From: Herbaspirillum sp. GW103
Lineage (GTDB): Bacteria; Pseudomonadota; Gammaproteobacteria; Burkholderiales; Burkholderiaceae_D
Direction of reading: 5' to 3'
Length of the DNA: 64,000 nt
NCBI RefSeq assembly: GCF_000261365.1
Contig: NZ_AJVC01000003.1
Location: forward strand, 1,798,001 to 1,862,000
Under the pieces are notes generated by a model. The model saw nothing but the letters and a program-made list of their open reading frames with translations, was not told where the DNA came from and did not search any database. How positions within the stretch are numbered: the stretch's first letter is position 1; the number at the start of each line of letters is the position of its first letter. This document shows, piece by piece, positions 18,830-32,809 of the stretch. A program made the position numbers and the translations under genes.

Positions 18830-19009
18830 GGCCTGGCGCCTCAAGCGGGGAGCGGCTGCCAAGGGTGGGGGGCTCCCCGCAAACCCGCTGATTTTGCTTG
18901 TTTCTTCATTTACCCTTCGCAGTTTCCCCCCTTTTTTTCCTGCTGGCCCACAATATGCCCCGAGATCAACCGTCTTCAGGGCATGCAGCCCATTTCCACC
19001 CTCTCCCCG

Positions 19010-19570: not shown

Positions 19571-19950
19571 TGGATCAGAATGAAATGCCTCAAAATCCCC
19601 CCACCCCGGCACGCCGCGATCGTGGCTTCCGTGGCGGGCGTGACCCGCGCCGCTGGGGCGTGAAGCTGCTGCTGTGCCTGCTGTGCGTGCCCCTGCTGGG
19701 TGTGGTGGTGATGCTGCTGTGGAACTGGGTGATGCCGCCGATCTTCCCGGGCGTGGCCGAGATCGGCTTCTGGCGGGCGCTGGGATTGCTGGTGCTGTGC
19801 CGGGTGCTGTTCGGCGGCTTTCGCGGGCGGCATGGCAGCTGGCATGAGAAGCGCCGCTTCATGCGCGCTCGCTGGGAAGCGATGACGCCTGAGGAACGCG
19901 AACGCTGCCAGCTGCGCAGCCGCATGTTCTGCCGCCAGGAGCGCAAGTGA
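19570..19950 (+). CDS. Small membrane protein coupled to the ECF sigma gene
   Basis: Protein of 126 residues with a basic N-terminus (RRDRGFRGGRDPRRW), two hydrophobic segments at about 31-53 and 65-82, and a basic tail containing MRARWEAMTPEERERC. No zinc-dependent anti-sigma signature (HxxxCxxC) is present. Its start overlaps the sigma-factor stop, so a regulatory partnership is likely but unproven. The EAMTPEERERC stretch is reminiscent of heavy-metal-sensor-like periplasmic helices. I do not recognise a named family. Confidence 0.75.
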   Translation: MDQNEMPQNPPTPARRDRGFRGGRDPRRWGVKLLLCLLCVPLLGVVVMLLWNWVMPPIFPGVAEIGFWRALGLLVLCRVLFGGFRGRHGSWHEKRRFMRARWEAMTPEERERCQLRSRMFCRQERK

Positions 19951-19979
19951 AGGAAAACGCCCTCCCGGGCTGAACGCCA

Positions 19980-21233
19980 TCAGCCCAGGGCCGAGGGCTG
20001 GGGCGCGATGTTCCAGTCGCGCTCCTGCAAGCCAATCGAGGTGAAGGGATCGACCAGGGTACCGGCCACCATCCGGGCCAGCAGTTGCGGTGCAGGCGGC
20101 ACCACCGACAAGCGCGCCGCCAATTGGTCGCGCACCCATGGCAACCACACCGAATCGGACTGGTAGAACGGCGTGAACATCGCCGACATCGCCTGGAAGG
20201 TCCGCACGTGGCGGCGTCGCGAGGCGGCATAGCGCGGCAGCGCCTGTTCCGGCGTATCGGACTGCTGCAGGGCATGAATCAGCGCCCGTGCATCAAGCAA
20301 GGCCATGTTGGCCCCCTGCCCCAACTGCGGGCTGGTCGAGTGGGCGGCATCACCAATGATGGCCAGCCGCTGTCCATACGGCGCAGGCAAGGTGTGATGG
20401 CCGTAGCGCGCCAGCGTCATCTGCTCGAAGCCATCGATCTGGGCCAGATAGGGATCACATTCCGGCCACAGCGCATGAATTCCCTCCTTCCATGCTTCCA
20501 GCCCCCGTTGCTTGAGCTGCTCCACCTGGTCCGGCTTGGTACTCCAGAAGAAGGCCACCATGGGATCATCCTGCTGCCTCGGACGACCAATGGGCAGCAC
20601 TCCGATCATGGTGCTGGCGCGGCGATAGCGCTGCACCAGTGAATTGACACCGAACGACAGACCGGGCTGGGCGCGCAAGGAAACCCAGAAGGCGCCATAG
20701 GGCAGGCGCTTGGGCTCGCAGGTATTGAGCGCGTAGCGGCGCAGCAGCGAACGGGCACCGCTGGCATCGATGACCAGATCGAAGGGGCCGATGCGGCGGC
20801 CGTCCGCAGTCGTGAGGCTGGCACCGGCGCTGCCCTGCTCCAGGCCGTTGATCTCATGGCCGGTTTCGGCTTCGAGCCCTTCCCTCTGCGCCGCCTCCTG
20901 CAGGACACCGAACAGGGCTGCACGATGGACGGCAATGCCATAGCGTCCGCCGCGCACGGCGTCATATCGCACATCCAGCACCGTCTTGCCGCTGAGGGCG
21001 TCGGCCCCGTAGAGGCGGTCGATGCGCTGGCCCAGCGCGGCGATGCGCGAGAACAGGCCCAGGTCTTCGAGCACCGTCAGTCCGGTGGGCTGCAGGATCA
21101 GGCCGGAACCCACCGGTGCGGCCGTGACGAAGCGTTCCAGCAAGGTGACGCGATGGCCGGCGCGCTTGAGATAGAGCGCCATGGCCAAGCCGGCCGGGCC
21201 GGCACCGGCGATGGCTACGTGCATGGATTTCAT
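19980..21233 (-). CDS. FAD-dependent monooxygenase/oxidoreductase (UbiH/PHBH-like)
   Basis: Flavoprotein of 417 residues. The FAD-binding GAGPAGLAMALYLKR motif is near residue 10, the middle motif DLVIDASGARS corresponds to the DG region, and the second FAD motif IIGDAAHSTSPQLGQGAN is clear. Such class-A monooxygenases hydroxylate aromatic or quinone-like substrates with NAD(P)H and O2. The substrate cannot be assigned. It is 2 bases downstream of an enoyl-CoA hydratase gene, suggesting a small catabolic operon. Confidence 0.87.
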   Translation of the reverse strand: MKSMHVAIAGAGPAGLAMALYLKRAGHRVTLLERFVTAAPVGSGLILQPTGLTVLEDLGLFSRIAALGQRIDRLYGADALSGKTVLDVRYDAVRGGRYGIAVHRAALFGVLQEAAQREGLEAETGHEINGLEQGSAGASLTTADGRRIGPFDLVIDASGARSLLRRYALNTCEPKRLPYGAFWVSLRAQPGLSFGVNSLVQRYRRASTMIGVLPIGRPRQQDDPMVAFFWSTKPDQVEQLKQRGLEAWKEGIHALWPECDPYLAQIDGFEQMTLARYGHHTLPAPYGQRLAIIGDAAHSTSPQLGQGANMALLDARALIHALQQSDTPEQALPRYAASRRRHVRTFQAMSAMFTPFYQSDSVWLPWVRDQLAARLSVVPPAPQLLARMVAGTLVDPFTSIGLQERDWNIAPQPSALG

Positions 21234-21235
21234 GC

Positions 21236-22039
21236 TTATCCTGCTGCAGATGAATTGCGAGTCCAGGCGGGGGCGTCTTTTTCGAGGAAGGCGCGCAGGC
21301 CTTCCCGCCCTTCAGGCGAGGCGCGCAGGTCGGCGATGACGCCGGCCGTGTATTCCGCCAATTCAGGCGTGACCTGCAGCGGATTGGCCACCTGTACCAG
21401 TTGCTTGGCGGCGCGCATCGCCTGCGGTCCGTTGGCCAGCAAGGTATCGATCACTTGCAGGACCTTGGCATCCAGTTCCTGGGCCATCACCACTTCATGC
21501 ACCAGGCCGATGGCGGCGGCGCGAATGGCAGTGAAACGCTCGCCCGAGACGAAGAAGCGGCGCGCCTGCGATACGCCCATCTTGGCGATCACGTAGGGGC
21601 TGATGGCGGCCGGAGCCAAGCCCAGCTTGACTTCGGAAAGTGCAAAGAAAGCCGCCTCGGAAGCTACCACGATGTCGCAGCACGAGACCAGGCCAACACC
21701 GCCGCCCATGACCGCGCCCTGGACCTTGGCTACCGTCGGCGCCGGGAAGCTGTTGAGGGTTTCCATCAGCAGTGCCAGCTTGCGGGCATCGTGCAGATTG
21801 TCCTCGCGCGAGGCATCGGCCATGCGGCGCATCCAGGCCAGGTCGGCGCCGGCGGAGAAGGACTTGCCGGTGGAGGCCAGCAGCAGGACGCGAGTGCGTT
21901 TGTCGTCACGCGCCTCGTTGATGAGGACGATCAGGCGGGCGATCAGCTGATCGTCGAAAGCATTGTGGACATCAGGGCGATTGAGGGTCAACGTGGCCAG
22001 GCCACGAGGGTCGATGTCGAGATGGGCGGCTGCGGTCAT
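21236..22039 (-). CDS. Enoyl-CoA hydratase/isomerase family protein
   Basis: Crotonase-fold enzyme of 267 residues. The oxyanion-hole motifs are KSFSAGADLAWM and the region GAVMGGGVGLVSCCDI, and a catalytic Glu is plausible in FALSEVKLGLAPA. The sequence layout resembles methylglutaconyl-CoA hydratases and other short-chain enoyl-CoA hydratases; the exact substrate is open. The ATG at 22039 follows a GGAGC site; upstream codons look non-coding. It is the last core gene before the accessory island. Confidence 0.88.
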   Translation of the reverse strand: MTAAAHLDIDPRGLATLTLNRPDVHNAFDDQLIARLIVLINEARDDKRTRVLLLASTGKSFSAGADLAWMRRMADASREDNLHDARKLALLMETLNSFPAPTVAKVQGAVMGGGVGLVSCCDIVVASEAAFFALSEVKLGLAPAAISPYVIAKMGVSQARRFFVSGERFTAIRAAAIGLVHEVVMAQELDAKVLQVIDTLLANGPQAMRAAKQLVQVANPLQVTPELAEYTAGVIADLRASPEGREGLRAFLEKDAPAWTRNSSAAG

Positions 22040-22350
22040 TTTCGCTCCTGCGATCAGTGGGGTCCTGCAACGAGATTGAAAACAGAGGTGCGGTGGAGGA
22101 TAGCGCAAAATTCCTGCGGCAAGTGTTACGGGGAAGACAAACACCGACTGGCTGGTCTGGAAAAAATGATGCTGTCGGGGAGCGTTCGAGGGATCGTTGC
22201 GCTACCGACGTCCAACGCTGGACAGGATTTCTGCTGGCCATTTCGGCTTGCTCTTGAGGTGATAGCAGACCCAGCCCAGCAAGCCATAAGGAATCGTGAA
22301 CCACAAGAAACAAAGCGCAAACAACTGCGCCAGCAACATGAGGAAAGTAA
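22040..22350. other. Junction between core genes and the accessory island
   Basis: This 311-base stretch has no convincing gene on the plus strand. The minus strand carries a 45-codon frame, listed separately. Composition shifts from core-like GC-rich to more balanced sequence toward 22300, which suggests that the left border of the acquired segment lies here. No direct repeat or attachment site is recognised. Confidence 0.5.
22202..22339 (-). CDS. Possible 45-residue membrane peptide
   Basis: The frame begins MLLAQLFALCFLWFTIPYG, one hydrophobic helix followed by a short basic segment (YHLKSKPKWPAE). Protein-like composition supports it, but no ribosome binding site is visible and the frame is open upstream of the ATG, so it could also be the tail of a broken gene. 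It overlaps nothing else convincing. Confidence 0.2.
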   Translation of the reverse strand: MLLAQLFALCFLWFTIPYGLLGWVCYHLKSKPKWPAEILSSVGRR

Positions 22351-22902
22351 ACGGATAGCCTGAAGCTGTCCGGCTCGCAAGAGTTCCGGCGCGAAGCCTG
22401 GTTGCAAGCTGAGTCGCAAGGCATCAAGACACAGGGTTACACGCCCAAGCAAAGTGACCTGGCCGCGCTGGAAACCTTGCGGAAAGAGCGCTCTACGAAC
22501 GCCATCACGCCCCTGCAGGAGCGCAAGGCAGAGCGCGCAACAACGGTACGCGAAGAGGCCATAACGGCGGCACCGCGCCACGATCTGAACAAGAACCAAG
22601 CGGCCATGCACGTTGAGGCCAGCAAGTTCATCGCCACCAACATGCAAGCGCTGCAAAAACGGCCCGGCATGGCCGACAAGTCGGTAGAGGACTTGACCAA
22701 GCTGGCCTACTGGCGCGGCATCGTGACCGAACAGAACAAGTTGCAGCCCAAGCCTGTGCAAGATGAAGCGCTCGCGCGCTTCGACAAACAGGCGGTTGAC
22801 CCGCAGTTTTTAAAGCGCCTGAATCAGGAGACAGAGTCGAAGATTCAGGACAAGACCACTGAGCGCGTGCAACAGCGCGATACACACGAGCAATCGCTTT
22901 GA
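22351..22902 (+). pseudogene. C-terminal fragment of a relaxase/TraI-like conjugation protein
   Basis: An open frame of 183 codons starts directly after a stop and has no good start codon (a TTG at 22402 at best), so the 5' end is missing. It opens with SGSQEFRREAWLQAESQGI and GYTPKQSDLAALE, resembling the LPD7-type region near the end of large TraI-type relaxases and plasmid primases. The rest is a charged helical tail containing DLTKLAYWRGIVTE. The same kind of tail occurs in the second zeta-like gene of this island. It is probably a remnant of a conjugative or mobilisable element. Confidence 0.55.
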
Positions 22903-22946
22903 TGAGGCCTGCCGTGCACCCACTGAATAATTTCGAGTTAGGAAAT

Positions 22947-23222
22947 ATGAAAAGGGCCTTCGCACAAACTGATGCGATTTTTGCACTCGAAGGATTTGAG
23001 CCTGACGCGGACATGCACGCAATTCGTGAAGCGCTTTTAGCAGGGCGTGTCACTCACGCTCAAGTCATCCAAGAAAAACTTGACTTCATAAAATGCACAA
23101 AACTCTCGATGGATTCAAACAGTCTCGCTCTTGGATCTAAAGTTGTTTCATGGCCAACTCCTACACCGATACCAATGGAATCTATCGGAACAAACTTGGC
23201 GCTACTGATGCCGCCCGGTTAA
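22947..23222 (+). CDS. VbhA-like antitoxin of a Fic toxin (possibly frameshifted)
   Basis: The gene starts at an ATG after AGGAAAT. Its first 50 residues (FALEGFEPD, then LLAGRVTHAQVIQEKLDF) match VbhA-family antitoxins, which block Fic AMP-transferases with an S/T-x-x-x-E-G/N helix. Here the motif reads IFALEG, so the first position is Ile rather than Ser/Thr. The annotated frame runs 73 bases into the following fic start, which is unusual. A second frame from 23093 ends with TAA at 23140, ten bases before fic, suggesting a one-base deletion. The antitoxin would naturally have been about 65 residues. Confidence 0.55.
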   Translation: MKRAFAQTDAIFALEGFEPDADMHAIREALLAGRVTHAQVIQEKLDFIKCTKLSMDSNSLALGSKVVSWPTPTPIPMESIGTNLALLMPPG

Positions 23223-23278
23223 AACAACTTGAGTACGGCCTCACTGCCGAGCGTTCTAGTGAAATACTGAACAAGAAA
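23150..23278 (+). pseudogene. Truncated Fic (VbhT-like) toxin, N-terminal fragment
   Basis: The frame starts MANSYTDTNGIYRNKLGATD and continues LKQLEYGLTAERSSEIL, which is how VbhT-type Fic proteins begin. After about 43 residues the similarity ends and the frame runs into sequence belonging to the opposite-strand zeta-like region. The catalytic HPFxxGNGR motif is absent, so no AMP-transferase can be made. The upstream antitoxin is partly preserved, as often happens when the toxin is lost first. Confidence 0.55.
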
Positions 23279-23331
23279 GCCAACTATCGGCTCCGATCCA
23301 CCAACAATAAGACGAACAAGCCGCACGTGCC

Positions 23332-23470
23332 CTACGTCGAACGAGGACTCGCGGAGGTGTGCAGCAGCGATGAATCAACGGCCTCCCGCTCCACGCGCGC
23401 TATGTTCTGTTTGATGGATTCTAACTGCTCGTCGCGGCGCAGAATCTCACCACGCTTCCGATCAGCTTCC
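23332..23470 (-). pseudogene. Out-of-frame continuation of the zeta-like protein tail
   Basis: This frame, shifted relative to the zeta-like gene, reads LEADRKRGEILRRDEQLES and then IKQNIARVEREAV, a convincing charged coiled-coil that would follow naturally on the tail if a one-base change near 23485 were corrected. It has no start of its own with a ribosome binding site. I read it as the lost C-terminus of the gene at 23462-24667. Confidence 0.4.
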
Positions 23471-24667
23471 AGATTCTGCACGAAATTCTCGGTGAAAAGC
23501 CTGTTGGTCTGCTGCGGTTGCGTCGTACTTCGCAAAGTCCGGCGCTATCCCCTTGAACTCTGAGGCCTTCTCGTGGAACCCGCGAAAGTACACCGCCTTG
23601 GCCAGCTCGCCCCCGGTGTGCTGGCCATACCTGGCATCACGCGCAAGCGTGGCTGCGTTCGCGTCGAGCTGGTTCATGGCGTGGACATGAATCCGCTCTT
23701 TCTGTACTGCGGTCAGATCGTCTTTTAACGAGTGACGCTCTGAATGTACTTGCGATACTCCGGGTCTGTCTCCATGCGATTCCCGGCTTCCACCATCTTG
23801 CGGCCGAGTTCCTGCCTCCAAGCTATGCGGCTGTCGGCCTGCTGCTTGGGTGTAGAACCCTGCTGAGTACCTTCCTTCTCGATAACCGGTGTCGAGGGCT
23901 GCTGAGAGTCTTGCGTAGATTTCGTCACGATTGCCTTCCTTTTCTAAAAAATTGATCTGCTTCCATCCTTCATACGCAGTTCTTTGCCTAGGGTTGTTGT
24001 CCAACACCTCAAGGCCCACACGATCAACAAACCGCTCATTGATTCGACGCAGCCCGGCGGGCAAGTTCCCTTGAATGTCGGCCATGACACTCAAGGATGC
24101 CCCGCGTCCATTGTTGGGATCAAGATAGCGGTAGTTCGTGCGCTCCAAGGCCACCTCGGGCGCAACGTGAACCGCCACGATTTCCACATTAAACCCTTTT
24201 TCAAGCGCCTGTTCGATCTTCTGCATCGCCGGTTCTGGGCGACTTAGTTGCCCTTCGAACACGACGGCAGCTACACCCAGCACAGCAGAGGCAACAGTCG
24301 ATGATTTCCCTGCACCTGGGATTCCCGTCACAAACACCACGGTATCACGGTCAGGCGCTGGCCCTGCTTCAACAAGCCGCCGAAACTGCTCCGAGGACAG
24401 AACAGCAGCCGCGTTGTGAACCGCACCATTCAGCGCTGAACGGCTCTCTCGTGACTGCGCAAAGCCTGGCATCAATTCTTTAAAACTGTCGGCACATACA
24501 TAGCGCCCGCCAAAGGTGTCCGGCCTAGCTGCATACTCGCTCAAAACCTGGTCGGTTCGCTTCGTGGCCAGCTCGATCGCCCTAGCCTCTGCCTCTATCC
24601 GTACCGGGTCAGTAAAGCCTCTTGTAGTGATGGTTTCCATGAGTGGGTTCGCTTTCGCGTCAGCCAT
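23462..24667 (-). CDS. Zeta-toxin-like P-loop kinase with conjugation-type C-terminal tail
   Basis: Protein of 401 residues. A Walker A motif, GIPGAGKSS, is at residues 115-123 within a zeta-like kinase domain (about 80-270). Then comes a linker of odd composition (about 280-330) and a tail with KERIHVHAMN, ELAKAVYFRGFHE and DFAKYDATAAD. Zeta toxins phosphorylate UDP-N-acetylglucosamine or similar substrates; here the kinase reaction is inferred. It starts 6 bases after the preceding zeta gene ends. The linker is overlapped by another frame with a strong ribosome binding site. The C-terminus looks frameshifted: the next frame extends EFVQNLEADRKRGEI for about 45 more residues. Functionality is doubtful. 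Confidence 0.6.
   Translation of the reverse strand: MADAKANPLMETITTRGFTDPVRIEAEARAIELATKRTDQVLSEYAARPDTFGGRYVCADSFKELMPGFAQSRESRSALNGAVHNAAAVLSSEQFRRLVEAGPAPDRDTVVFVTGIPGAGKSSTVASAVLGVAAVVFEGQLSRPEPAMQKIEQALEKGFNVEIVAVHVAPEVALERTNYRYLDPNNGRGASLSVMADIQGNLPAGLRRINERFVDRVGLEVLDNNPRQRTAYEGWKQINFLEKEGNRDEIYARLSAALDTGYREGRYSAGFYTQAAGRQPHSLEAGTRPQDGGSRESHGDRPGVSQVHSERHSLKDDLTAVQKERIHVHAMNQLDANAATLARDARYGQHTGGELAKAVYFRGFHEKASEFKGIAPDFAKYDATAADQQAFHREFRAESGS
23628..23704. repeat. 77-bp direct repeat, copy 1 (with 24674-24750)
   Basis: This segment matches 24674-24750 at 70 of 77 positions. Both copies encode the same peptide module (KERIH-HAMNQL-ANAATLARDAR) at equivalent places in the two zeta-like genes. 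Five of the seven differences are transitions. Confidence 0.85.
23725..23928 (-). CDS. Small protein overlapping the zeta-like gene in another frame
   Basis: A GTG start is preceded by AGGAAGG at 5-base spacing, one of the best ribosome binding sites in the island, and the frame is closed by a stop just upstream. The 67-residue product has a Gln/Thr/Pro-rich first half and then RIAWRQELGRKMVEAGNR and DPEYRKYIQSVTR. Third-position GC by eye is higher in this frame than in the overlapping zeta frame. No family is recognised. It may be a genuine nested gene, or a former separate gene absorbed into the zeta frame by rearrangement. Confidence 0.4.
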   Translation of the reverse strand: MTKSTQDSQQPSTPVIEKEGTQQGSTPKQQADSRIAWRQELGRKMVEAGNRMETDPEYRKYIQSVTR

Positions 24668-24672
24668 GTTGG

Positions 24673-25557
24673 TTACCTGGCATCACGCGCAAGCGTGGCC
24701 GCATTTGCGTTGAGCTGGTTCATGGCGTGGCAATGAATCCGCTCCTTCTGCATCTCCTCGATGCGCTTATGGTGGTCTTGTAGCGTCGCTTGATAGCCGG
24801 GTGGTGCTTGACGCTGCGCGGCCATTTCACGAGTTTCCGCCCACACATCGGCGGTTTCCTTGAGCTTGTCATCTGTGAGTTTGCGGCCCTCGGCGAGCGC
24901 TTCCAACACGTTGCCTCGCCCCTGAGCCTGGCTGTCGAAGAAGACATTGCCGCCACGGTCAATGACGCGAGTACGATCGAGCACGCCACCAGCCTTTGTA
25001 AGCGTATTTTCAAAGCCACGCATAGCGTCGTCGTGGTACGTCTCCGCCACCATGCGCGGATTGTCGGCCTTTGCTTGGTGCTGCAATTCATGTCGGTTGT
25101 AGATGCCTAGCAAGCTCTGCTCGCGTGGCGTGGCCACAGCCAGCATTTCGACGTTGTAGCCCTGCTCTCGCTTGCCAGCCACGAAGCGCTCTGCGCCTTC
25201 TGCCTCCCTGTAGGTACCTTCTTCCAAGATGTTGCGACGGTTGGCCACAGCCAATTCACGCAATGCCTGCACCAGCTTGCCGGCGTCAGCTTGCGTCTCC
25301 TGAGATGTCGGCTTGCTGTTGCCCAAAGGGATGCGCTCCCGCATCCGGTCGGCGTCGATATGAATGTAACCGCCCTGCTCACGCAGTTCCGACTTAGCCA
25401 GCATAGATGCTTGAGACTTGCCCGCGCCTGGCTGCCCGCCAACGAGCACCATTCGCGGCTCATCCTGTGCCGTCGTTTTTCCAGCTCGCTTTACGTAGTA
25501 GTCAAGCGCGATAGCTTTCACCTGCTCATCAGTGAGCGGCTTGTATGCTTCAACCAT
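24673..25557 (-). CDS. Zeta toxin family protein (C-terminally truncated)
   Basis: Protein of 294 residues with the classical zeta arrangement: Walker A GQPGAGKS at 41-48, then IHIDADRMRERIP at about 66-78 carrying the substrate-site Asp, and the motif ILEEGTYREAE typical of these kinases. Zeta/PezT toxins phosphorylate UDP-GlcNAc and block wall synthesis. It starts 2 bases after a small gene that may encode its antitoxin. The tail stops at TLARDAR exactly where sequence identity with the neighbouring gene's tail ends, so the terminal module seems deleted. The kinase core looks intact. Confidence 0.78.
   Translation of the reverse strand: MVEAYKPLTDEQVKAIALDYYVKRAGKTTAQDEPRMVLVGGQPGAGKSQASMLAKSELREQGGYIHIDADRMRERIPLGNSKPTSQETQADAGKLVQALRELAVANRRNILEEGTYREAEGAERFVAGKREQGYNVEMLAVATPREQSLLGIYNRHELQHQAKADNPRMVAETYHDDAMRGFENTLTKAGGVLDRTRVIDRGGNVFFDSQAQGRGNVLEALAEGRKLTDDKLKETADVWAETREMAAQRQAPPGYQATLQDHHKRIEEMQKERIHCHAMNQLNANAATLARDAR
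24674..24750. repeat. 77-bp direct repeat, copy 2
   Basis: Second copy of the 23628-23704 repeat, encoding the last residues of the first zeta-like protein. The homology breaks at the GCCAGGTA position, where this copy goes directly to a TAA stop. Confidence 0.85.
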
Positions 25558-25559
25558 TC

Positions 25560-25802
25560 TCAGCGCACCGCAAACGCGGCATCTGCATCAAGGATGCGCT
25601 GAATGGTTTCTGTGTCCGTGGGGGTGAGGCTGTCTTGAAGTTCATCAAGTGCAGCCAAACGCATTTCACAATAACGGATGAAGTCCTGCGATGGCTTAGC
25701 TTTCTGCTGTTCATCATGGATGGCCTGCATAAATGGCTGGCGACCCTGCCCCAAAACTTCTAACGCCACCTCGTACCGCACACCGTTTTTTAGGTCTGAC
25801 AT
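25560..25802 (-). CDS. Small protein upstream of zeta toxin, candidate antitoxin
   Basis: Acidic 80-residue protein starting MSDLKNGVRYEVALEVL after a strong AAAGGA site; no signal peptide or membrane segment. Predicted mostly helical, with the C-terminal half LAALDELQDSLTPTDTETIQ. It ends 2 bases before the zeta toxin ATG, the standard antitoxin-first arrangement with translational coupling. It does not resemble epsilon or PezA, so the role is assigned from position only. Other possibilities are a plasmid accessory gene unrelated to toxicity. Confidence 0.6.
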   Translation of the reverse strand: MSDLKNGVRYEVALEVLGQGRQPFMQAIHDEQQKAKPSQDFIRYCEMRLAALDELQDSLTPTDTETIQRILDADAAFAVR

Positions 25803-26042
25803 TTCTATTCCTTTCAAAACTATTTGCGCTTGCGCCGCCTTTGGCCGCGCCCCTTGGCTTCCCATACCGTGGTGCCCGCTTCTAGCACCCGAAGCACCTT
25901 GCCAGTGTGCTCCCTTATCTCGCGTCGTAGTGAGGCAATTTTCTTACATACTTCAGGGTGACGCCCACCGACGCGCTGCCGGTGGCCAGCAAGGGGAGGA
26001 TGGCACGCTTGGGAAGTAAGTAGGTCATGTGCTCTTTCTTTA
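25803..26042. other. Gap with an open frame that lacks a start codon
   Basis: On the minus strand a frame is open from 26080 to the TAG at 25820 and contains a protein-like stretch (HPEVCKKIASLRREI and then VLRVLEAGTTVWEAKGRG with a very basic end), but no ATG, GTG or TTG occurs in it. A competing 37-codon frame starts at an ATG at 26024. One of them is probably a decayed small conjugation-element gene; I cannot choose. Confidence 0.35.
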
Positions 26043-26690
26043 TCAAAGTTGAGGGCGAATCGTACGGTACAAATTGTTGTTCATGTACACTTTAATGGCG
26101 AAGCCGCTCAAGAATGGGTCAATGAATACGACGCGGTCATAAACGCCCACCTCGTACATGGTTCGATCATCCCAGCTTTTGCCCACTGTGACATTCACAG
26201 TGCCAACAGAGTTGCCCACACAAACCTTTTTCTGAGGGCTTCCACCCTCCCCGCCATAACCAAGATTCGAGTATGACCCTTCACCAATGCCAACGAAAAA
26301 GCTCGTGAAGGGGCCATTTCTCCACCAACCAGCGTTGTTTTGCGCCTGGACTTGGGCGGGTGTTCCCTGCACTGCATTTCGGCCCGAAGAAAGGGCGCTT
26401 GTACCAGCAGGGCAGGCGTCATAATAGTTGTTGTACTCGACATTGGCATAGCTGCGCGTACCGTTCGCGCTGGTGGCCATGGCGCACGTGGGGAAGGGGT
26501 CAGGCTTCCACTTGAAGATGGCCTCATACAGCCGCTTAATGGGTGGCACACACTGAGACACGGCCATGGGACCAGCGGGGTTAGAGAGGCACAAGAGCAC
26601 CTCACAACCCCAATCATCCGCGTTTGCGGCACTCGAAAAAGTGGCGGCACACGACGCGGAAAACACAGCTAAAACACGCGAAATTTTCAT
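26043..26690 (-). CDS. trbM: TrbM/KikA family conjugal transfer protein
   Basis: Exported protein of 215 residues. A signal peptide (LAVFSASCAATFSSAANA) is followed by DDWGCEVLLCLSNPAGP and AVSQCVPPIKRLYEAIF, the Cys-containing hallmark of TrbM/KikA proteins encoded in the mating-pair-formation region of IncP-like plasmids and integrative elements. Its exact role in the type IV secretion channel is not known. No other trb genes remain here, so it marks a decayed conjugative element. GC content is clearly below that of the flanking core genes. Confidence 0.8.
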   Translation of the reverse strand: MKISRVLAVFSASCAATFSSAANADDWGCEVLLCLSNPAGPMAVSQCVPPIKRLYEAIFKWKPDPFPTCAMATSANGTRSYANVEYNNYYDACPAGTSALSSGRNAVQGTPAQVQAQNNAGWWRNGPFTSFFVGIGEGSYSNLGYGGEGGSPQKKVCVGNSVGTVNVTVGKSWDDRTMYEVGVYDRVVFIDPFLSGFAIKVYMNNNLYRTIRPQL

Positions 26691-26750
26691 CTTTTTTATC
26701 TCTAAAAATGGAGATATTTTGCCTGTAAATCAGATAGAAAGTTAACCGTT

Positions 26751-26890
26751 TCACGCACCTTTATTGGTAGCTGGATCAGTCTTAGTTTGCGCTTGAGTTC
26801 CCTTGTTGCGCATCGCCAGCAACTCCGCCTTGTAGTCTTCGCATACCTCAAACTGACCCCTGATTTTCGCCAATTCTTCGCAGGTTACTG
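26751..26890 (-). pseudogene. C-terminal fragment of an unidentified gene upstream of trbM
   Basis: The last 46 codons before the TGA at 26751 (TCEELAKIRGQFEVCEDYKA, LLAMRNKG, then a Thr/Gln-rich end) look protein-coding. Upstream the same frame enters the antisense of the TnpB fragment and turns into low-quality sequence. The original 5' part has been replaced. No family recognised. Confidence 0.35.
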
Positions 26891-26894
26891 CGGC

Positions 26895-27134
26895 ATCGGC
26901 AACGCCCGCCGCGACTACCTGCACGAGGCCACGACTACGATCAGCCAAAACCACGCGATGGTGCGCAGCATGTCCAAGTCGGCAGCAGGTACAACCGAGC
27001 AGCCGGGTAGGAATGTTAGGGCCAAGTCCGGCCTGAACAAGACCATCCTCGATCAGGGGTGCTTCGAGTCCCGCCGCCAACTGGATTACAAGCTAGCGTG
27101 GGCCGGCGGGCATCTCATCGCCGTGCCGCCGCAG
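26895..27134 (+). pseudogene. TnpB (IS200/IS605 OrfB) fragment
   Basis: About 80 codons without a proper start read IGNARRDYLHEATTTIS, then MSKSAAGTTEQPGRNVRAKS and QLDYKLAWAGGHLIAVPP, unmistakably the RuvC-region of an IS605-family RNA-guided nuclease TnpB. The conserved ED(L) segment expected after NHAMV is deleted in frame, and everything after VPPQ, including the zinc finger, is missing. It is therefore inactive. It joins directly to the RelE-like tail. Confidence 0.75.
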
Positions 27135-27137
27135 GAA

Positions 27138-27244
27138 TCCCCAGCCTTCAAGCGGGGGAGGATGTCAAATACTCAAAATCAAAGAAGGATGATCTGACCG
27201 AGCGGGAAACGGCCCTGCTGCGAGACTTTGTGAAGGAGCTATGA
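27138..27244 (+). pseudogene. C-terminal fragment of a RelE/HigB-like toxin
   Basis: The frame ends VKYSKSKKDDLTERETALL followed by RDFVKEL and a stop, resembling the end of Gp49/HigB-type RelE toxins. The N-terminal part is absent, replaced by TnpB sequence. The downstream antitoxin start follows after one base, as in HigBA operons (toxin first). Confidence 0.45.
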
Positions 27245-27245
27245 G

Positions 27246-27295
27246 ATGGAACAAGCACTATTTGATGATCTGCTGCAAAGCCTGCAAGAAGCTAA
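27246..27295 (+). pseudogene. HigA-like antitoxin start interrupted by the IS element
   Basis: An ATG one base after the toxin stop opens a frame reading MEQALFDDLLQSLQEA, similar to the beginning of XRE-type HigA antitoxins. After 16 codons the sequence becomes the inverted repeat of the IS1380-family element. The remainder of the gene is not found beyond the right end of the IS, so insertion was accompanied by deletion or later rearrangement. Confidence 0.45.
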
Positions 27296-27431
27296 CCCGG
27301 ATATTTCACCAGTCTTGAAATCGATGAGCAAAGTGCGCTGGAAGGGGGCGATGTATGTCGTATAACCGTTTCTCGAGGCGTATTCTGCCGCTTCGCGTAT
27401 TTTGAGGCGCAATTCCCCCTACCCCCGTTGT

Positions 27432-28775
27432 TTATGGCGTGCCGGGGACAGCACTTTTTGTCTTTAAGGAGCCAGTGCCTGCGCGGCGTGGATGAAGACG
27501 TGTTTGAGCGGGTGTTGGGACGCTAGCAGCACCCGCACGCGACGCGTGTTGCGCACGATGGTCGTGCCGATCTTGAGTAGTTTGACTCGGATGGTGGCGG
27601 TGCAGGCGCGCGCCAGCTCGGTGCCCCCCCAGGGCGAGTCGGCGCAGGTTGATCATCAGCGTGTAGGCGAATGCCGCCAATAGCAGGCGCAACTGGTTGG
27701 CCTGAAATTTGTGGCAGCTGGCACGCCGTCCGAATAGATCGAGCTGGGCTTCCTTGATGCGGTTTTCAGCCTCGCCTCGGGCACAGTACAGTCGCTCGTA
27801 CAAGGCTTTGGGGTCGCCCTGCAGGTTGGTGACGACGAAGCGCGGATTGGTGCCGTGTGCATCGTGCTCAAGCCGCGCGATCACGCGGCGCTCACGATCC
27901 CAGCTACGCGCGGCGTAGTCGAATTCACCGATCATGCGCTGTTTGGTGCCGGCCTCTTGATACATATCCGCCAACGCCAGCTCGGCCAACTCGACACGCT
28001 GTATCAAGGCGGCGTTCTTTTGCAGGCCGACGATATAGTGCAGTCCCCATCGCTCGAAGCGCCGCAGCGCTTGCGGGCGGCAGAAGCCCGAATCGCCGCG
28101 CACGATAATGCGCACGCGCGGCCACGCCTGACGCAGGCGCCGCACGAGCAGCTTGATCAGCGCACTCAGGATACTGGCCGGGTCGCGGCTGCTCGGACGC
28201 AGCACGCAGGCCAGGATATCCTGCCCGCAGAACACGTACAGTGGGAGATAGCAGTAGTTGTCGTAGTAACTGTGGAAGTGAGATCTCTCCTGCGCACCAT
28301 GGAGCGGTATGTGGGTGGCGTCGATGTCGAGAATCAGTTCTCGCGGACGCTCCGATTTGCTGGCGATGAACTGGTCGAGCAGCACGCCATGCAAGGCCGC
28401 TGCGTGCGCGCGCGTGGCCGAGGTCTCGAGGCGGCTCAAGGTAGGTGCCGAGGCCAGTTCATTGGCCCGACCCACGGCGGTTTGCAACGCCAGATCGCGT
28501 CGCAGCACGTTGTGGTCGCACACATCCTCCCAGCCGCAGCACAGGCCGTAAATCCGTTGCGCCAGCATGTCGCGCATGCTGTGTGCCACGCTGGCGTGGC
28601 GACGACGATCATCGAACACGCGCGCTATCGATTGGGTCAAGCCGATACGTTGATCAACCTGCCGCAGCAGCAACACGCCGCCGTCACTAACGATGTCGCC
28701 TCCATCGAAAGCCGCCTCGATCACGCGGCGGCCGCCCCGTCCAAACTCCACTGCTTCAACGGTACAATTTGGCAT
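27432..28775 (-). CDS. IS1380 family transposase, C-terminus frameshifted
   Basis: DDE transposase of 447 residues as read. Catalytic motifs are in LILDIDATHIPLHG (Asp), IIVRGDSGFCR (Asp) and CARGEAENRIKE (Glu). After NLRRLAL the frame passes a run of seven G (27624-27630, C on the plus strand) and turns into His/Arg-rich nonsense. Removing one G gives TELARACTATIRVKLLKIG and continues sensibly to a TAA at 27464. The true product would be about 436 residues. The change could be inactivating, a sequencing error, or slippery-run frameshifting. The catalytic core itself is intact. Confidence 0.88.
   Translation of the reverse strand: MPNCTVEAVEFGRGGRRVIEAAFDGGDIVSDGGVLLLRQVDQRIGLTQSIARVFDDRRRHASVAHSMRDMLAQRIYGLCCGWEDVCDHNVLRRDLALQTAVGRANELASAPTLSRLETSATRAHAAALHGVLLDQFIASKSERPRELILDIDATHIPLHGAQERSHFHSYYDNYCYLPLYVFCGQDILACVLRPSSRDPASILSALIKLLVRRLRQAWPRVRIIVRGDSGFCRPQALRRFERWGLHYIVGLQKNAALIQRVELAELALADMYQEAGTKQRMIGEFDYAARSWDRERRVIARLEHDAHGTNPRFVVTNLQGDPKALYERLYCARGEAENRIKEAQLDLFGRRASCHKFQANQLRLLLAAFAYTLMINLRRLALGGHRAGARLHRHHPSQTTQDRHDHRAQHASRAGAASVPTPAQTRLHPRRAGTGSLKTKSAVPGTP
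27624..27630 (-). other. Seven-base homopolymer at transposase frameshift
   Basis: Seven C on the plus strand (seven G in the gene) mark the point where the coding frame changes. Six would keep the standard family C-terminus. Confidence 0.8.
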
Positions 28776-28868
28776 CGGCGGTACTCGGTTGTTATTTGGT
28801 GTGAGAGCCTTTAATAACGCGCTTCATCGCGCGACCGCCGACTTCTAGTCATGAAATATCCGGGCTAG

Positions 28869-28975
28869 CGCTCGCTGCGCGAGCGAGGGATTCGCCCACG
28901 TGCCGCGGGCCCGGTTTCGCTTGCAAGCGAAACCCTTCGAATCCCCCCCGCGATGTGCTCAAGCACATCGCTAGG
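28869..28975. repeat. 107-bp palindrome-rich repeat, copy 1
   Basis: It matches 29066-29172 at 105 of 107 positions, 197 bases apart. It holds successive palindromes: CGCTCGC-TGC-GCGAGCG, GGTTTCGCTTG/CAAGCGAAACC and GCGATGTGCT-CA-AGCACATCGC. It starts 4 bases beyond the IS end. Confidence 0.9.
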
Positions 28976-28985
28976 TGACGCCAAA

Positions 28986-29011
28986 CAAAAAAGCCCGCAT
29001 GCGCGGGCTTT
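28986..29011. terminator. Hairpin terminator, copy 1
   Basis: AGCCCGC-AT-GCGCGGGCT-type stem with A residues before and three T after; part of the same duplicated unit as the palindromes. The A run makes it suited to terminate minus-strand transcripts from the tRNA array. Confidence 0.6.
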
Positions 29012-29065
29012 CGGCTGGCTGGGGTGGCTTGGATTGCGTTCGGTGCGCGCTCCACCGCCCTCTAA

Positions 29066-29172
29066 CGCTCGCTGCGCGAGCGAGGGATGCGCCCACGTGC
29101 CGCGGGCCCGGTTTCGCTTGCAAGCGAAACCTTTCGAATCCCCCCCGCGATGTGCTCAAGCACATCGCTAGG
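29066..29172. repeat. 107-bp palindrome-rich repeat, copy 2
   Basis: Second copy of 28869-28975 with two substitutions. Like copy 1 it is followed by a hairpin with flanking A and T runs, so the duplicated unit is really about 145 bp. Confidence 0.9.
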
Positions 29173-29183
29173 GGCCACCAAAT

Positions 29184-29212
29184 AAAAAAGCCCGCATGCG
29201 CGGGCTTTTTTA
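29184..29212 (-). terminator. Terminator of the tRNA array
   Basis: The stem AAAAAGCCCGC / GCGGGCTTTTT lies 3 bases past the end of the last tRNA-Glu. On the minus strand it ends in a T run, so it should terminate the tRNA transcript. Confidence 0.85.
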
Positions 29213-29214
29213 TT

Positions 29215-29290
29215 TGGCGTCCCCTGGGGGATTCGAACCCCCGTACTCACCGTGAAAGGGTGATGTCCTAGGCCTCTAGACGAAGGGGAC
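29215..29290 (-). tRNA. tRNA-Glu (UUC)
   Basis: A 76-base cloverleaf with encoded CCA. Acceptor GTCCCCT pairs with AGGGGAC, the anticodon loop contains TTC, and the T loop reads GTTCGAATC. Last of five tRNAs in the array and identical to the other two Glu copies. Confidence 0.97.
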
Positions 29291-29363
29291 AAAACGGTCA
29301 CAACTACTACATTCCTCGAATCAGCTCTTCCGCCAATTCACCCCACATTTCCATGCGGGTCGC

Positions 29364-29439
<76 letters not shown>

Positions 29440-29517
29440 TGCGAAAGGAAAAGTCCCAAACTCCGGACTATCCAACCTCAAGGTAGCCTGACCGGTCAGA
29501 TCAGACTACTTACTACC

Positions 29518-29593
29518 TGGCGTCCCCTGGGGGATTCGAACCCCCGTACTCACCGTGAAAGGGTGATGTCCTAGGCCTCTAGACGAAGGGGAC
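29518..29593 (-). tRNA. tRNA-Glu (UUC)
   Basis: Identical 76-base copy of the other tRNA-Glu genes, CCA encoded. It lies 78 bases upstream of the tRNA-Ala at 29364 in transcription order. Confidence 0.97.
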
Positions 29594-29649
29594 ACTATAC
29601 CGCTACCTACCTGCGCTGCCTGCTGGGTGACAGCGCAGATATCGAAATC

Positions 29650-29725
29650 TGGCGTCCCCTGGGGGATTCGAACCCCCGTACTCACCGTGAAAGGGTGATG
29701 TCCTAGGCCTCTAGACGAAGGGGAC
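29650..29725 (-). tRNA. tRNA-Glu (UUC)
   Basis: Third identical tRNA-Glu copy with encoded CCA, 56 bases from the next tRNA-Glu. Confidence 0.97.
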
Positions 29726-29805
29726 AAGCAGGTACTTCATATTACTTCTTGTTTCTACACTTCAAGCTTCGCCTGAAATATCACCGCCAAACATCTGCGG
29801 GTCGC

Positions 29806-29881
<76 letters not shown>

Positions 29882-29897
29882 GTTGCGAAGAAGCGAG

Positions 29898-29926
29898 ATT
29901 ATGCAATACCTATTTTCAAAAGACAA
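29898..29926 (-). promoter_or_regulatory. Promoter of the tRNA array
   Basis: On the minus strand TTGTCT (29926-29921) and CATAAT (29903-29898) are separated by exactly 17 bases, giving a strong sigma-70-type promoter. The -10 element ends 16 bases before the first tRNA-Ala base. A GC-rich discriminator follows, as expected for stringently controlled stable RNA. Confidence 0.75.
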
Positions 29927-29954
29927 CATGTTTTTGAAAAATAATTTCTCTTTT

Positions 29955-31355
29955 TCAAAGATATGCCGCCAAACGTACCTTAACAGCCTCACGACCAAAC
30001 AATTGCAACACGGCGTCAATGGCCGGCGTCTGCAATTGACCCGCCACGATCAGGCGCAAGGGCATGGCCAGCTGCGGCATCTTGATGCCGTGCGCAGCCA
30101 GGACTTCCTTGATCATCGGGGCAATGGCTTCCTTGGTCCATTCCACGGTCGCCACACGCTGGGCAAAGTCGGCCAGTGCCGGCTTGATGGCATCCGTAAT
30201 GTGCTGCGCCACCAAAGCCGCATCCGGGGCCGGCTGGCGGTAGAACATCAGGGCCGCCGCAGCAATCTCGTTGACGGTATTGGCGCGATCCTTCAGCAAA
30301 GCGATCACGGCCGCCAGATCAGGCGCACCCTCGAACACCGCACCCTGTGCTTGCAACAACGGACGGACCAGATCAGCCAGGCGGGCGTTGTCGGCCAGCT
30401 TGATATAGTGGTTGTTGAGCCAGTTCAGCTTTTCCGGGTTGAACTGCGCCGGGGCCTTGGTCAGGTGATCCAGGTCGAACCATTCACAGAACTGCTGCAT
30501 CGAGAAAATCTCGTCGTCGCCATGGCTCCAGCCCAAACGCGCCAGATAGTTCAGCATGGCTTCAGGCAGATAGCCCTGCGCCGGGTAATCCATCACGCTG
30601 ACTGCACCGTGACGCTTGGACAGCTTCTCGCCATCCGCACCCAGGATCATCGGCACGTGGCCATACTCGGGCAACGTGCCGCCCAGGGCCTTCAGGATAT
30701 TGATCTGGCGCGGCGTATTGTTCACATGGTCATCGCCACGGATGACGTGGGTGATCTTCATATCCCAATCGTCCACCACTACGCAGAAGTTGTAGGTCGG
30801 CGTGCCGTCCGGACGGGCGATGACCAGATCGTCCAGCTCACGGTTGGAAATGGTGATGGGGCCCTTGACCACATCGTTCCAGCTGACTTCGCCATCCTGC
30901 GGATTCTTGAAACGCACCACCGGCTTGCGACCTTCCGGAATGGCCGGCAGGGTCTTGCCCGGTTCCGGACGCCAGGTGCCGTCGTAGCGCGGCTTCTCGC
31001 CTGCCGCACGCTGACGCTCGCGCATGGCTTCCACTTCTTCCGGGGTGCAATAGCAGTAATACGCCGTGCCCTGCTCCAGCATCTGCGCAATCACTTCGCG
31101 ATAGCGATCCATGCGCTTCATCTGGTAGAACGGACCTTCGTCATGCTCCAGCCCCAGCCACTGCATGCCCTCGATGATGGCCTGCACCGCTTCCGGGGTG
31201 GAACGCTCGACGTCGGTATCTTCGATACGCAACACGAAAGTGCCGCCAAAGCGACGGGCGTAGGCCCAGGAGAACAGCGCCGTGCGGGCGCCGCCCAGGT
31301 GCAGGTAGCCGGTGGGACTGGGAGCGAAACGGGTACGAACTTGAGTGGCAGTCAT
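29955..31355 (-). CDS. gltX: Glutamate--tRNA ligase
   Basis: Class I aminoacyl-tRNA synthetase of 466 residues that charges tRNA-Glu. The HIGH-type motif is in [12 protein letters not shown] near residue 12 and the KMSKS-type motif is EKLSKRHGA in the middle. The C-terminal anticodon-binding domain is complete. It lies just upstream, in transcription order, of an array with three tRNA-Glu genes, its own substrate, though these have their own promoter. Confidence 0.97.
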
Positions 31356-31365
31356 GATAGCGAGT

Positions 31366-31401
31366 AAAAATCAGGCCGGTCCTGGAATGCCAGGGCCGGC
31401 C
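31366..31401 (-). terminator. Terminator after apbC
   Basis: On the minus strand a 12-bp stem (GGCCGGCCCTGG / CCAGGACCGGCC, one G-T pair) with a 4-base loop is followed by TGATTTTT. It lies about 90 bases after the apbC stop and before gltX. Confidence 0.75.
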
Positions 31402-31490
31402 ATCGGTCAAGCAAAGGAATTCGGAAAGGCGTCATTTTAACGCCTTTGCAGGGCGGCACGCCATGCCGGCAGCCCGCCCCGAGGCGCGCA

Positions 31491-32579
31491 TCAGTCGTTC
31501 TGCACCACGATGCTGGGGAACTTGCTGGTCATATCGCGCGCCTTCTCGGCCACCTTCACGGCGACCTTGCGGGCGATGGCCATGTAGATCTCGGCCACCT
31601 TGCCATCCGGATCAGCCACCACGGTGGGCTTGCCGGAATCGGTCTGCTGGCGGATTTCCATGGTCAGCGGCAAGGCGCCCAGGAAGTCCACGCCAAAGTC
31701 GGCACACATCTTCTCGCCACCGCCCACGCCAAAGATGGGCTCGGCATGGCCGCAATTGGAACAGACGTGCATGCTCATGTTTTCCACGATGCCCAGGATG
31801 GGGATGCCGACCTTCTCGAACATGCGCAAACCCTTGCGCGCATCCAGCAGCGCAATATCCTGCGGGGTGGTCACGATGACCGCACCGGTGACCGGCACCT
31901 TCTGCGACAAGGTCAGCTGCACATCACCGGTGCCCGGCGGCATGTCGACGATCAGGTAATCCAGGTCGCGCCAGTTGGTCTGGTCCAGCAATTGCTGCAG
32001 GGCTTGCGTGACGATGGGACCGCGCCAGACCATGGGTTCGTCGGGATCGATCATGAAACCGATGGAAGAGACCTGCAGGCCGTGATTCTCCAGCGGCTCC
32101 ATGGTCTTGCCATCCTTGGTCTCGGGCTGGCCGGAGATGCCCATCATCATCGGTTGCGAAGGACCGTAGATATCGGCATCCAGGATCCCCACGCGCGCGC
32201 CTTCGGCCGACAGCGCCAGCGCCAGGTTCACGGCCGTGGTGGACTTGCCCACCCCGCCCTTGCCGGAGGCCACGGCGATGATGTTCTTGACGTTGCTCTT
32301 GAGCTTGATGCCGCGCTGCACCGCGTGCGCCACGATCTTGAAATAGACGTTGGCCTCGACGCCGGTCACGCCGGGCAGCTTGCCCAGCGCCTCTTCGACC
32401 AGCTGGCGGATCGCTGCGATCTGGCTGGCGGCCGGATAGCCCAGTTCCACGTCCAGCAGCACACGGCCGCCCTCGACGCGGATGTTGCGGGCTTCCTTGC
32501 CCCGGATCAGATCCTTGCCGGTATTGGGGTCGATCACCTGCAACAGGGCCGCCTTGATCTCTTCCACGGTAATGCTCAT
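31491..32579 (-). CDS. apbC: Iron-sulfur cluster carrier protein ApbC (Mrp/NBP35 family)
   Basis: ATP-binding scaffold of 362 residues that delivers Fe-S clusters to target enzymes. An N-terminal MIP18-like domain (about 1-85) precedes the P-loop ATPase with the deviant Walker A ASGKGGVGKST and the motif DILDADIYGPSQP. The cluster-binding CxxC appears in MHVCSNCGHAEP. The gene faces away from metG across a 230-base shared promoter region. Confidence 0.95.
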   Translation of the reverse strand: MSITVEEIKAALLQVIDPNTGKDLIRGKEARNIRVEGGRVLLDVELGYPAASQIAAIRQLVEEALGKLPGVTGVEANVYFKIVAHAVQRGIKLKSNVKNIIAVASGKGGVGKSTTAVNLALALSAEGARVGILDADIYGPSQPMMMGISGQPETKDGKTMEPLENHGLQVSSIGFMIDPDEPMVWRGPIVTQALQQLLDQTNWRDLDYLIVDMPPGTGDVQLTLSQKVPVTGAVIVTTPQDIALLDARKGLRMFEKVGIPILGIVENMSMHVCSNCGHAEPIFGVGGGEKMCADFGVDFLGALPLTMEIRQQTDSGKPTVVADPDGKVAEIYMAIARKVAVKVAEKARDMTSKFPSIVVQND

Positions 32580-32809
32580 TGGTTCTCCTTGCTCAGAACC
32601 CGCAAGTCTAAACCAATCGCGCCAGCGCCGCCCTGTGCGGCGATCAAAGCGCCCTTGCAGAACCCTTCATATTGATTGCAACGGAGCAACTACTGCGCCC
32701 AAGGCCCGCTGGCTGATAGAATGCCCCTCTTTCATGGCAGTTTTATTGCAGTTTTCTTGCTATTTCGGCGCGCACGCGCCTTAACCCACTTGCATCGTCC
32801 GTATCGCCA

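Follow-up and report, generated by a model that had tools for sequence, protein, structure and literature searches.

A probable remnant of a conjugative plasmid with two zeta kinases in a variable chromosomal slot of Herbaspirillum sp. GW103

Gene content of the locus

Between an enoyl-CoA hydratase gene on one side and a Glu-Ala-Glu-Glu-Ala tRNA array on the other, the genome of Herbaspirillum sp. GW103 (5.05 Mb, six contigs) carries an insert of plasmid and toxin-antitoxin genes, many of them incomplete. It is described here within a window of 64,000 nucleotides, the whole stretch from position 1,798,001 to 1,862,000 of contig NZ_AJVC01000003.1, and positions without a further label are those of the window. 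Compared with the nearest relative (genome G007), chromosomal homology ends at 22357 and restarts at 28863, which agrees with the limits 22351 and 28864 proposed in an earlier note made from the letters of the window. On the right, the junction falls downstream of the tRNA-Glu gene, in the spacer, and not within the gene. The GC content is 0.553 in the insert (22358-26899) and 0.631 in the flanks (1-22141 and 29301-64000), and both the lower value and the tRNA cluster on the right side had been pointed out before. The open reading frames (ORFs), gene remnants and flanks are as follows.

21236..22039, minus strand: enoyl-CoA hydratase gene, left flank, chromosomal and kept in the genus (33 of 34 genus genomes, own included, match the flank query 21000-22500)
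22202..22357, minus strand: scrap of a DUF6708 gene, last 51 codons and stop (94% DNA identity to G007 up to 22357; by translation)
22358..22902, plus strand: C-terminal part, with natural stop, of an LPD7-domain plasmid protein, with the shared tail at about 22591-22899 (88% DNA identity to pVEIS01 3235-2665; 82.5% to pPLS206 14269-14826)
22948..23222, plus strand: VbhA-type antitoxin, the C-terminal frame of which looks disturbed by eye against an Acidovorax protein (Pfam VbhA E 3.5e-6, 27.3 bits, cut-off 25.9)
23150..23269, plus strand: Fic toxin, first 40 codons, then truncated (55% to a Fic family protein of Acidovorax sp. DW039, E 3e-11)
23465..24667, minus strand: zeta2, an ng_zeta1-type kinase domain and a C-terminal shared tail in a single open frame (PDB 6EPH/6EPG Zeta_1 toxin, E 1e-56, residues 26-279)
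23498..23734, minus strand: the shared tail of zeta2 (23506-23704 is 92% identical in DNA to the pVEIS01 zeta tail; also by hmmsearch; synonymous divergence, dS, 0.295)
24673..25557, minus strand: zeta1, a PezT/pVEIS01-type kinase domain with its tail cut after 26 residues at the zeta2 junction (Zeta_toxin E 2.1e-43, 148.5 bits; PezT 2p5t E 2e-12)
25560..25865, minus strand: antitoxin ORF of zeta1, with homology from residue 29 (68% over 75 amino acids to the annotated pPLS206 antitoxin; 62% to a Hydrogenophaga antitoxin)
25825..25958, minus strand, start approximate: DNA homologous to the end of a plasmid mobC gene (25702-25958 against pVEIS01 31173-30909, 80%; mobC is annotated at 30484-31047)
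26043..26690, minus strand: TrbM-like plasmid protein, secreted, full ORF, the label being that of the earlier note (81% over 215 amino acids to pVEIS01 22864-23499, "putative secreted protein")
26893..27168, plus strand: IS200/IS605 TnpB remnant, internally deleted (26893-27134 matches TnpB genes at up to 79.8% DNA identity; end 27168 by eye)
27158..27290, plus strand: RelE-type toxin tail, then the first codons of a presumed antitoxin, cut by IS1380 (antitoxin start by inspection)
27291..28869, minus strand: IS1380-family element (18-nt inverted repeats 27291-27308 and 28852-28869, 94%; the outer bases may be target sequence)
28863..29214, no strand: right flank, chromosomal repeats downstream of the tRNA-Glu gene (about 95-97% to loci L034, L035 and L038; 197-bp tandem unit in G007)

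VbhA/Fic, two zeta kinases with a candidate antitoxin, a RelE-type toxin, a TnpB scrap and an insertion sequence (IS) had all been named in the earlier note and agree with the matches listed above and below; the RelE-type tail (27158-27241) shows 87.5% over 24 amino acids to a RelE/ParE toxin, E 3e-5. The "relaxase-like tail" is instead the C-terminus of the LPD7-domain protein, 22353-22926 being 88% identical to pVEIS01, and the name TrbM finds no backing in the ORF concerned, which has no Pfam match at E<=1 and no NCBIfam match at E<=0.1. That nearly every gene is truncated was an overstatement. Open frames remain for the zeta1 kinase (without most of its tail), the zeta2 kinase with its tail, the antitoxin and the TrbM-like protein; the LPD7 gene, VbhA/Fic, the mobC region, TnpB and RelE with its presumed antitoxin are broken. 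A 67-codon ORF at 23725-23928 was rejected as a chance overlap because the zeta2 homology crosses it in another frame, and a reading of the region as a defence system was rejected on PADLOC scores that are only marginal (E 0.0013 and 0.0019).

The IS1380 element has the DDE transposase and terminal inverted repeats of its family. Its transposase ORF (27432-28775) matches NF033539 with 371.5 bits (cut-off 180, E 4e-111), and the Pfam profile is matched only to position 381 of 435, the C-terminal part of the family being without a match. The stretch has one match in its own genome and none in 33 other genomes of the genus, save a 23-base match in G021, and a near search gave no match in plasmids.

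Colinearity with plasmids pVEIS01 and pPLS206

A search with positions 22200-27450 against 72,556 plasmid records gave matches in 184 of them, with DNA matches reaching E=0, and the best is pVEIS01 of the earthworm symbiont Verminephrobacter eiseniae, a 31 kb plasmid of types MOBP and MPF_T. Six blocks (22353-26899) follow the minus strand of pVEIS01 in circular order.

Block 1, 22353-22926 to 3235-2665, minus strand of plasmid: over the end of the LPD7 gene, 88% DNA identity
Block 2, 23506-23704 to 1138-940, minus strand of plasmid: zeta tail, 92% DNA identity
Block 3, 24674-25378 to 1016-306, minus strand of plasmid: zeta
Block 4, 25702-25958 to 31173-30909, minus strand of plasmid: antitoxin/mobC region, 80%
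Block 5, 25983-26030 to 28163-28116, minus strand of plasmid
Block 6, 26042-26899 to 23503-22654, minus strand of plasmid: TrbM-like gene, 83% DNA identity

As pVEIS01 has a single zeta tail and the window two, blocks 2 and 3 share 77 bp of plasmid sequence. The arc of pVEIS01 that is followed, with deletions, amounts to 11.8 kb, and the chance of six blocks sharing one circular order and strand is about 1 in 4000 (5! orders x 2^5 strands), a rough figure as two of the six fall on one plasmid gene. Likewise, five blocks follow the plus strand of pPLS206 from Xylella taiwanensis in order (14269-14826, 23920-24109, 24033-25341, 28488-28715 and 28964-29006), covering the LPD7 tail, zeta, the antitoxin and the TnpB piece. 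The last two blocks take in the TnpB piece, of which 26906-27112 and 27127-27169 match pPLS206 in or beside its transposase gene, and that IS may therefore already have sat on the plasmid. Divergence from pVEIS01 is similar in the LPD7 tail (dS 0.49) and the TrbM-like gene (dS 0.50). By these matches the stretch is very probably a decayed segment of one conjugative plasmid of the pVEIS01/pPLS206 type, lodged in a variable slot between the hydratase gene and the tRNA-Glu-Ala array.

The window agrees with pVEIS01 and its relative pPLS206 in gene order, in strand and in the position of the zeta-antitoxin genes beside MobC; it differs from them in being chromosomal, in having no secretion system, relaxase or trfA, and in its second zeta head, VbhA/Fic scrap, RelE piece and IS1380. 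The virB operon, the VirB/VirD4 secretion genes, the coupling gene, the relaxase and trfA of pVEIS01 have no match in 19000-34000, and with backbone genes in the same order and strand and the transfer and replication genes missing the stretch is a remnant, not a plasmid. The pVEIS01 relaxase is found in 0 of 34 genomes of the genus, own included (E <= 1e-10), a search that had no positive control, so that the empty result shows little. It had been suggested that intact plasmids be searched for the same toxin set, and pPLS206 does hold LPD7, zeta, antitoxin and MobC genes, the same set as the plasmid piece in the window, but no record covers 80% of the query (0 of 184). Plasmids of mulberry-strain Xylella fastidiosa are listed as relatives of pVEIS01, going by a reference title in PMC3522642. 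The annotation of pVEIS01 contains two trfA genes and two BrnT/BrnA pairs (L002:20815-21681 and 26022-26834).

The zeta kinases and their shared tail

Zeta1 shows 60% to the pVEIS01 zeta and its Walker A motif GGQPGAGKS is conserved in the alignment. With a kinase domain carrying Walker A and an adjacent antitoxin ordered as on pPLS206 it has the features of a Zeta/PezT type II pair, though the antitoxin ORF matches no Pfam family, and the kinase and the adjacent ORF may still work together as a toxin-antitoxin pair of the ordinary kind. As stated in PMC5512222 and generally known, the substrates that zeta kinases phosphorylate are sugar precursors of the cell wall. Zeta2 (Pfam Zeta_toxin E 3.2e-12, open frame of 401 codons) belongs to the subfamily of the solved gonococcal Zeta_1 (6EPH), and its kinase core shows no gap of more than 7 residues against four plasmid relatives. 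A structure model of zeta2 was unusable, with a mean predicted local distance difference test score (pLDDT) of 39, and was set aside. Tandem epsilon/zeta loci of gonococcal conjugative plasmids (PMC2848598; 6EPG-6EPI) are alike in having two different zetas in tandem, by search matches of the same two subfamilies, and the V. eiseniae zeta is the best hit of gonococcal Zeta-2 in a table of that paper. The window differs in lacking the epsilon-1 gene between the zetas, the matches end before the tail, and the plasmid family is another one.

The two zeta genes share a direct repeat of 77 bp (23628-23704 in zeta2 and 24674-24750 in zeta1, 91% identical), and zeta1 is cut at the exact end of this repeat. 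The tail is about 80-100 residues long; zeta1 holds only its start, namely the repeat, and zeta2 continues it. Compared with pVEIS01 the zeta2 tail has a dS of 0.295 with 94% identical residues and a ratio of nonsynonymous to synonymous divergence (dN/dS) of 0.10 over 64 codons, while the zeta1 kinase has a dS of 1.5 with 56% identical residues. When the zetas of pVEIS01 and pPLS206 are compared with each other, the dS of the head equals that of the tail (0.56 and 0.54), and there the gene has thus travelled whole. Relatives of the zeta2 head bear other tails, KfrB in two Paraburkholderia plasmids, and two other genomes out of 399 in the order have a zeta2-type head and match over the head only. 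The low dS of the tail against the diverged heads, together with these other tails, fits a tail that would belong to the plasmid and on which toxin heads are exchanged. In a Methylomonas plasmid a zeta2-type toxin gene is immediately preceded by the gene of a stand-alone KfrB-domain protein (L070:1178-1528), which is a possible partner or antitoxin, and on the two Paraburkholderia plasmids (L071:9995-11245; L072:9995-11260) the zeta with C-terminal KfrB stands beside F-type transfer genes.

The same tail appears to form the C-terminus of the LPD7 protein. An alignment of the zeta tails with it has 12 columns that do not vary across six sequences. A profile built only on three zeta tails was run on 2220 stop-to-stop frames (at least 60 residues) of 15 plasmid stretches, and after the two zetas the next matches are the LPD7 proteins of the same two plasmids, with 15.8 and 15.7 bits (E 0.0017 and 0.0018), followed by a frame with 7.5 bits (E 0.64); the best of 11,100 shuffled frames reached 10.0 bits. 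BLASTP without composition correction gave E values of 1.6e-4 to 2e-3 for six zeta-LPD7 pairs, with an evident chance match at 0.007 in the same runs, and hhalign of the zeta against the LPD7 tail gave P 8.8e-5 and a probability of 59.7%. In our judgement these alignments point to a likeness that is real but remote. The LPD7 gene adjoins the coupling-protein gene on both pVEIS01 and pPLS206, from which we infer a role of its product in transfer.

In plasmids a search with the zeta2-tail protein found 6 records, that is pVEIS01 and five Xylella taiwanensis plasmids. Among 399 genomes of the order and 398 of the phylum, samples that share members, the tail profile had a single match each time, in the Herbaspirillum genome itself. 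Two genome-contig scans and two viral-contig scans (the latter with the LPD7 tails and with the zeta alignment) gave no confirmed tail relative, and distant ones can be missed because each scan seeds on only two short peptides. A literature search found no description of the tail, which is weak evidence of absence.

The tail is a candidate co-transfer tag that might tie toxins to plasmid transfer, a reading by analogy that we put forward tentatively. Pfam holds models for BID and for XVIPCD, and neither has a match at E<=1 in the zetas of the window or in the zetas and LPD7 proteins of pVEIS01 and pPLS206. In Bartonella, according to PMC5675462, the Fic toxin VbhT has a BID tail virtually identical to that of the relaxase and is delivered during conjugation, and the same delivery is proposed for the PezT-BID toxin. 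The window resembles these FIC-BID and PezT-BID toxins in that the toxin of a toxin-antitoxin pair has a C-terminal domain common to a transfer protein of the same plasmid, the transfer role of the LPD7 protein being the presumed one given above, and in that the heads are of different families. It differs in that its tail is not BID by Pfam and is shared with the LPD7 protein rather than with a relaxase, and delivery would here follow from sequence analogy. The X-Tfe effectors of PMC6536674 likewise include toxin domains, Zeta Toxin domains among them, in front of XVIPCD, the C-terminal signal of some 120 residues for type IV secretion; X-Tfe is a chromosomal killing system, whereas the window holds the remnant of a conjugative plasmid. 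Polyvalent proteins of conjugative elements (PMC5512222) are alike in having zeta-like kinases fused to other domains, for which cell-wall weakening is proposed there. LPD7 and KfrB domains are present on the plasmids compared here (Pfam), and a term search finds neither in the main text of that paper.

On the parent plasmid the zeta toxins would have borne the tail common to the LPD7 protein as a tag for transfer. That the tail is a new conjugative co-transfer signal, so that plasmids of the pVEIS01 type would send toxins with their DNA and swap heads by recombination within the tail, is in our view doubtful at present, and several results weigh against it. The relaxases of pVEIS01 and pPLS206 have no such tail, only the LPD7 protein and the zeta matching in each record; the profile of this search was built partly from the same rows, and the best pairwise match to a relaxase has an E of 0.048. 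None of the LPD7 proteins of six other plasmids rises above background with the zeta-only profile (a Sphingomonas one reaches 4.5 bits, E 5.6), the KfrB tails of the two Paraburkholderia zetas are not repeated elsewhere on their plasmids in either sequence or profile searches, and the known sources of the shared tail, seven in number, come down to three lineages. A general rule that the tail of a plasmid's zeta recurs in one of its transfer proteins is not supported. Other plasmids' LPD7 proteins were also considered as tail carriers and rejected, since tblastn matches reaching residue 364 looked by eye like linker likeness in a Serratia protein.

The main rival to a transfer tag is regulation or multimerisation, and it is quite possible, if somewhat short of probable, that the tail is a regulatory, multimerising or antitoxin-docking domain, for instance one keeping zeta silent until plasmid loss, with the likeness to LPD7 as a duplicated structural module. 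This would agree with the relaxase, the surest transfer substrate, lacking the tail, with the six LPD7 proteins at background, and with single-sequence folding of the LPD7 tail alone, in which a helical bundle is predicted (mean pLDDT 76, five models 49-76; best PDB match E 1.0). However, two plasmids typed as non-mobilizable, from Hydrogenophaga and Diaphorobacter, have zetas that are paired with an antitoxin and bear no such tail, hence the toxin does not need it, and the conjugatively delivered toxins of PMC5675462 also share their tails with a transfer protein.

The tail on zeta2 may also be a product of decay, with recombination at the 77-bp repeat, once the plasmid DNA had integrated, fusing a zeta2 head that had no tag to the tail of the zeta native to the plasmid. 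The repeat in both genes, the end of zeta1 exactly at the end of the repeat, and the other tails or bare heads of zeta2 relatives all speak for this course, which is possible but leans towards the doubtful, as zeta2 with its tail is one open frame of 401 codons and the tail shows few amino-acid changes (the dN/dS above), though most of that divergence may predate integration.

The variable slot and the history of the insert

The site between the enoyl-CoA hydratase gene and the tRNA array is a variable slot. Of the other 33 genomes in the genus search of 34, 29 were examined for how far the nearest tRNA-Glu lies from the hydratase start, with G002, G022, G029 and G032 outside the sample. This distance can be measured in 24, and 22 of these have an empty or nearly empty site (136-1359 bp), in agreement with the earlier note, which had proposed to look for one. 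In the five others (G023, G026, G008, G028 and G021) the stretch ends 241-1501 bp past the hydratase start with no tRNA-Glu within it. The remaining two of the 24 hold other cargo. G007 (6.6 kb) has a likely type VI secretion cassette (L034:2112-7742) with a VasX_N protein of 1234 amino acids, an open DUF6708 gene (E 8e-19) and a weak DUF4123 match (E 0.0047, below its cut-off), and G020 (7.2 kb) has DctP and DctQ-DctM proteins of a TRAP transporter. There are thus three different tenants among 25 resolved genomes, own included, and the gene order of the window is not repeated in the genus genomes examined.

The window keeps a DUF6708 scrap of the G007-type cargo at the left edge, indicating that the plasmid piece replaced an older tenant. 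One arc of the plasmid would have lodged in the slot, overwriting an older type VI secretion cassette and cutting its DUF6708 gene. IS1380 has the RelE-antitoxin piece at one end and the chromosomal repeats at the other, and this arrangement suggests that the rest of the plasmid was lost by an IS-driven deletion: the element would have landed in the antitoxin gene of the RelE-type pair, and a later rearrangement would have removed what remained of the plasmid as far as the chromosome, so that plasmid DNA borders one IS end and the chromosome the other.

Some observations count against a single plasmid segment with this history. Four pieces are without a counterpart on either pVEIS01 or pPLS206, namely the zeta2 head, the VbhA/Fic scrap, the RelE piece and IS1380; the first three may be later arrivals or part of an unsampled plasmid relative. 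The zeta1 kinase is far more diverged from pVEIS01 than the backbone, the 236 bp from the Fic head to the zeta2 tail (23270-23505) match nothing convincing in the plasmid stretches compared, and no intact relative with the whole gene set is among the 184 matching records. The order of events at the IS1380 end is deduced from one genome. Neither an integrase nor an attachment repeat accounts for the entry route: no integrase was found among ten ORFs scanned with Pfam and NCBIfam, some small ORFs lying outside the scan, and no direct repeat of at least 14 nt links both edges in 22100-29000, so that an integrative element at a tRNA is not shown.

The earlier note had instead proposed successive insertions into one hot spot, and its variable slot with a succession of tenants stands, but accretion of independent toxin-antitoxin cassettes and IS elements beside the tRNA array is improbable, for although an earlier tenant has left a scrap and four pieces (VbhA/Fic, the zeta2 head, RelE and IS1380) lack plasmid counterparts, the toxin types are not separate insertions when six blocks lie in order on one pVEIS01 strand and five on one pPLS206 strand, the LPD7 tail and the TrbM-like gene are equally diverged from pVEIS01, and the VbhA/Fic and zeta2 pieces sit within the plasmid arc, not outside.

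Downstream of tRNA-Glu the tandem 197-bp unit (28863-29214; L034:7919-8530) contains hairpins and a terminator-like stem by eye, and it is present in 3.1 copies in G007 and in fewer in the window. The Glu/Ala tRNA array (29215-29881; loci L034-L052) has three to five genes across the species of the genus where it is complete. Positions 45001-46000, with a GC content of 0.70 and an AT skew of 0.51, are unlike the rest of the window and could be coding sequence of low complexity.

Decayed plasmid pieces in variable slots are nothing unusual in a genome. What this fossil preserves is one tail on two zeta heads that belong to different subfamilies, beside the remains of an LPD7 protein that has the tail too. 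Should the tail prove to be a transfer signal, BID and XVIPCD would be joined by another kind of toxin tag, and the proposal of PMC5675462 that conjugative systems repeatedly make addiction toxins into delivered proteins would gain support.

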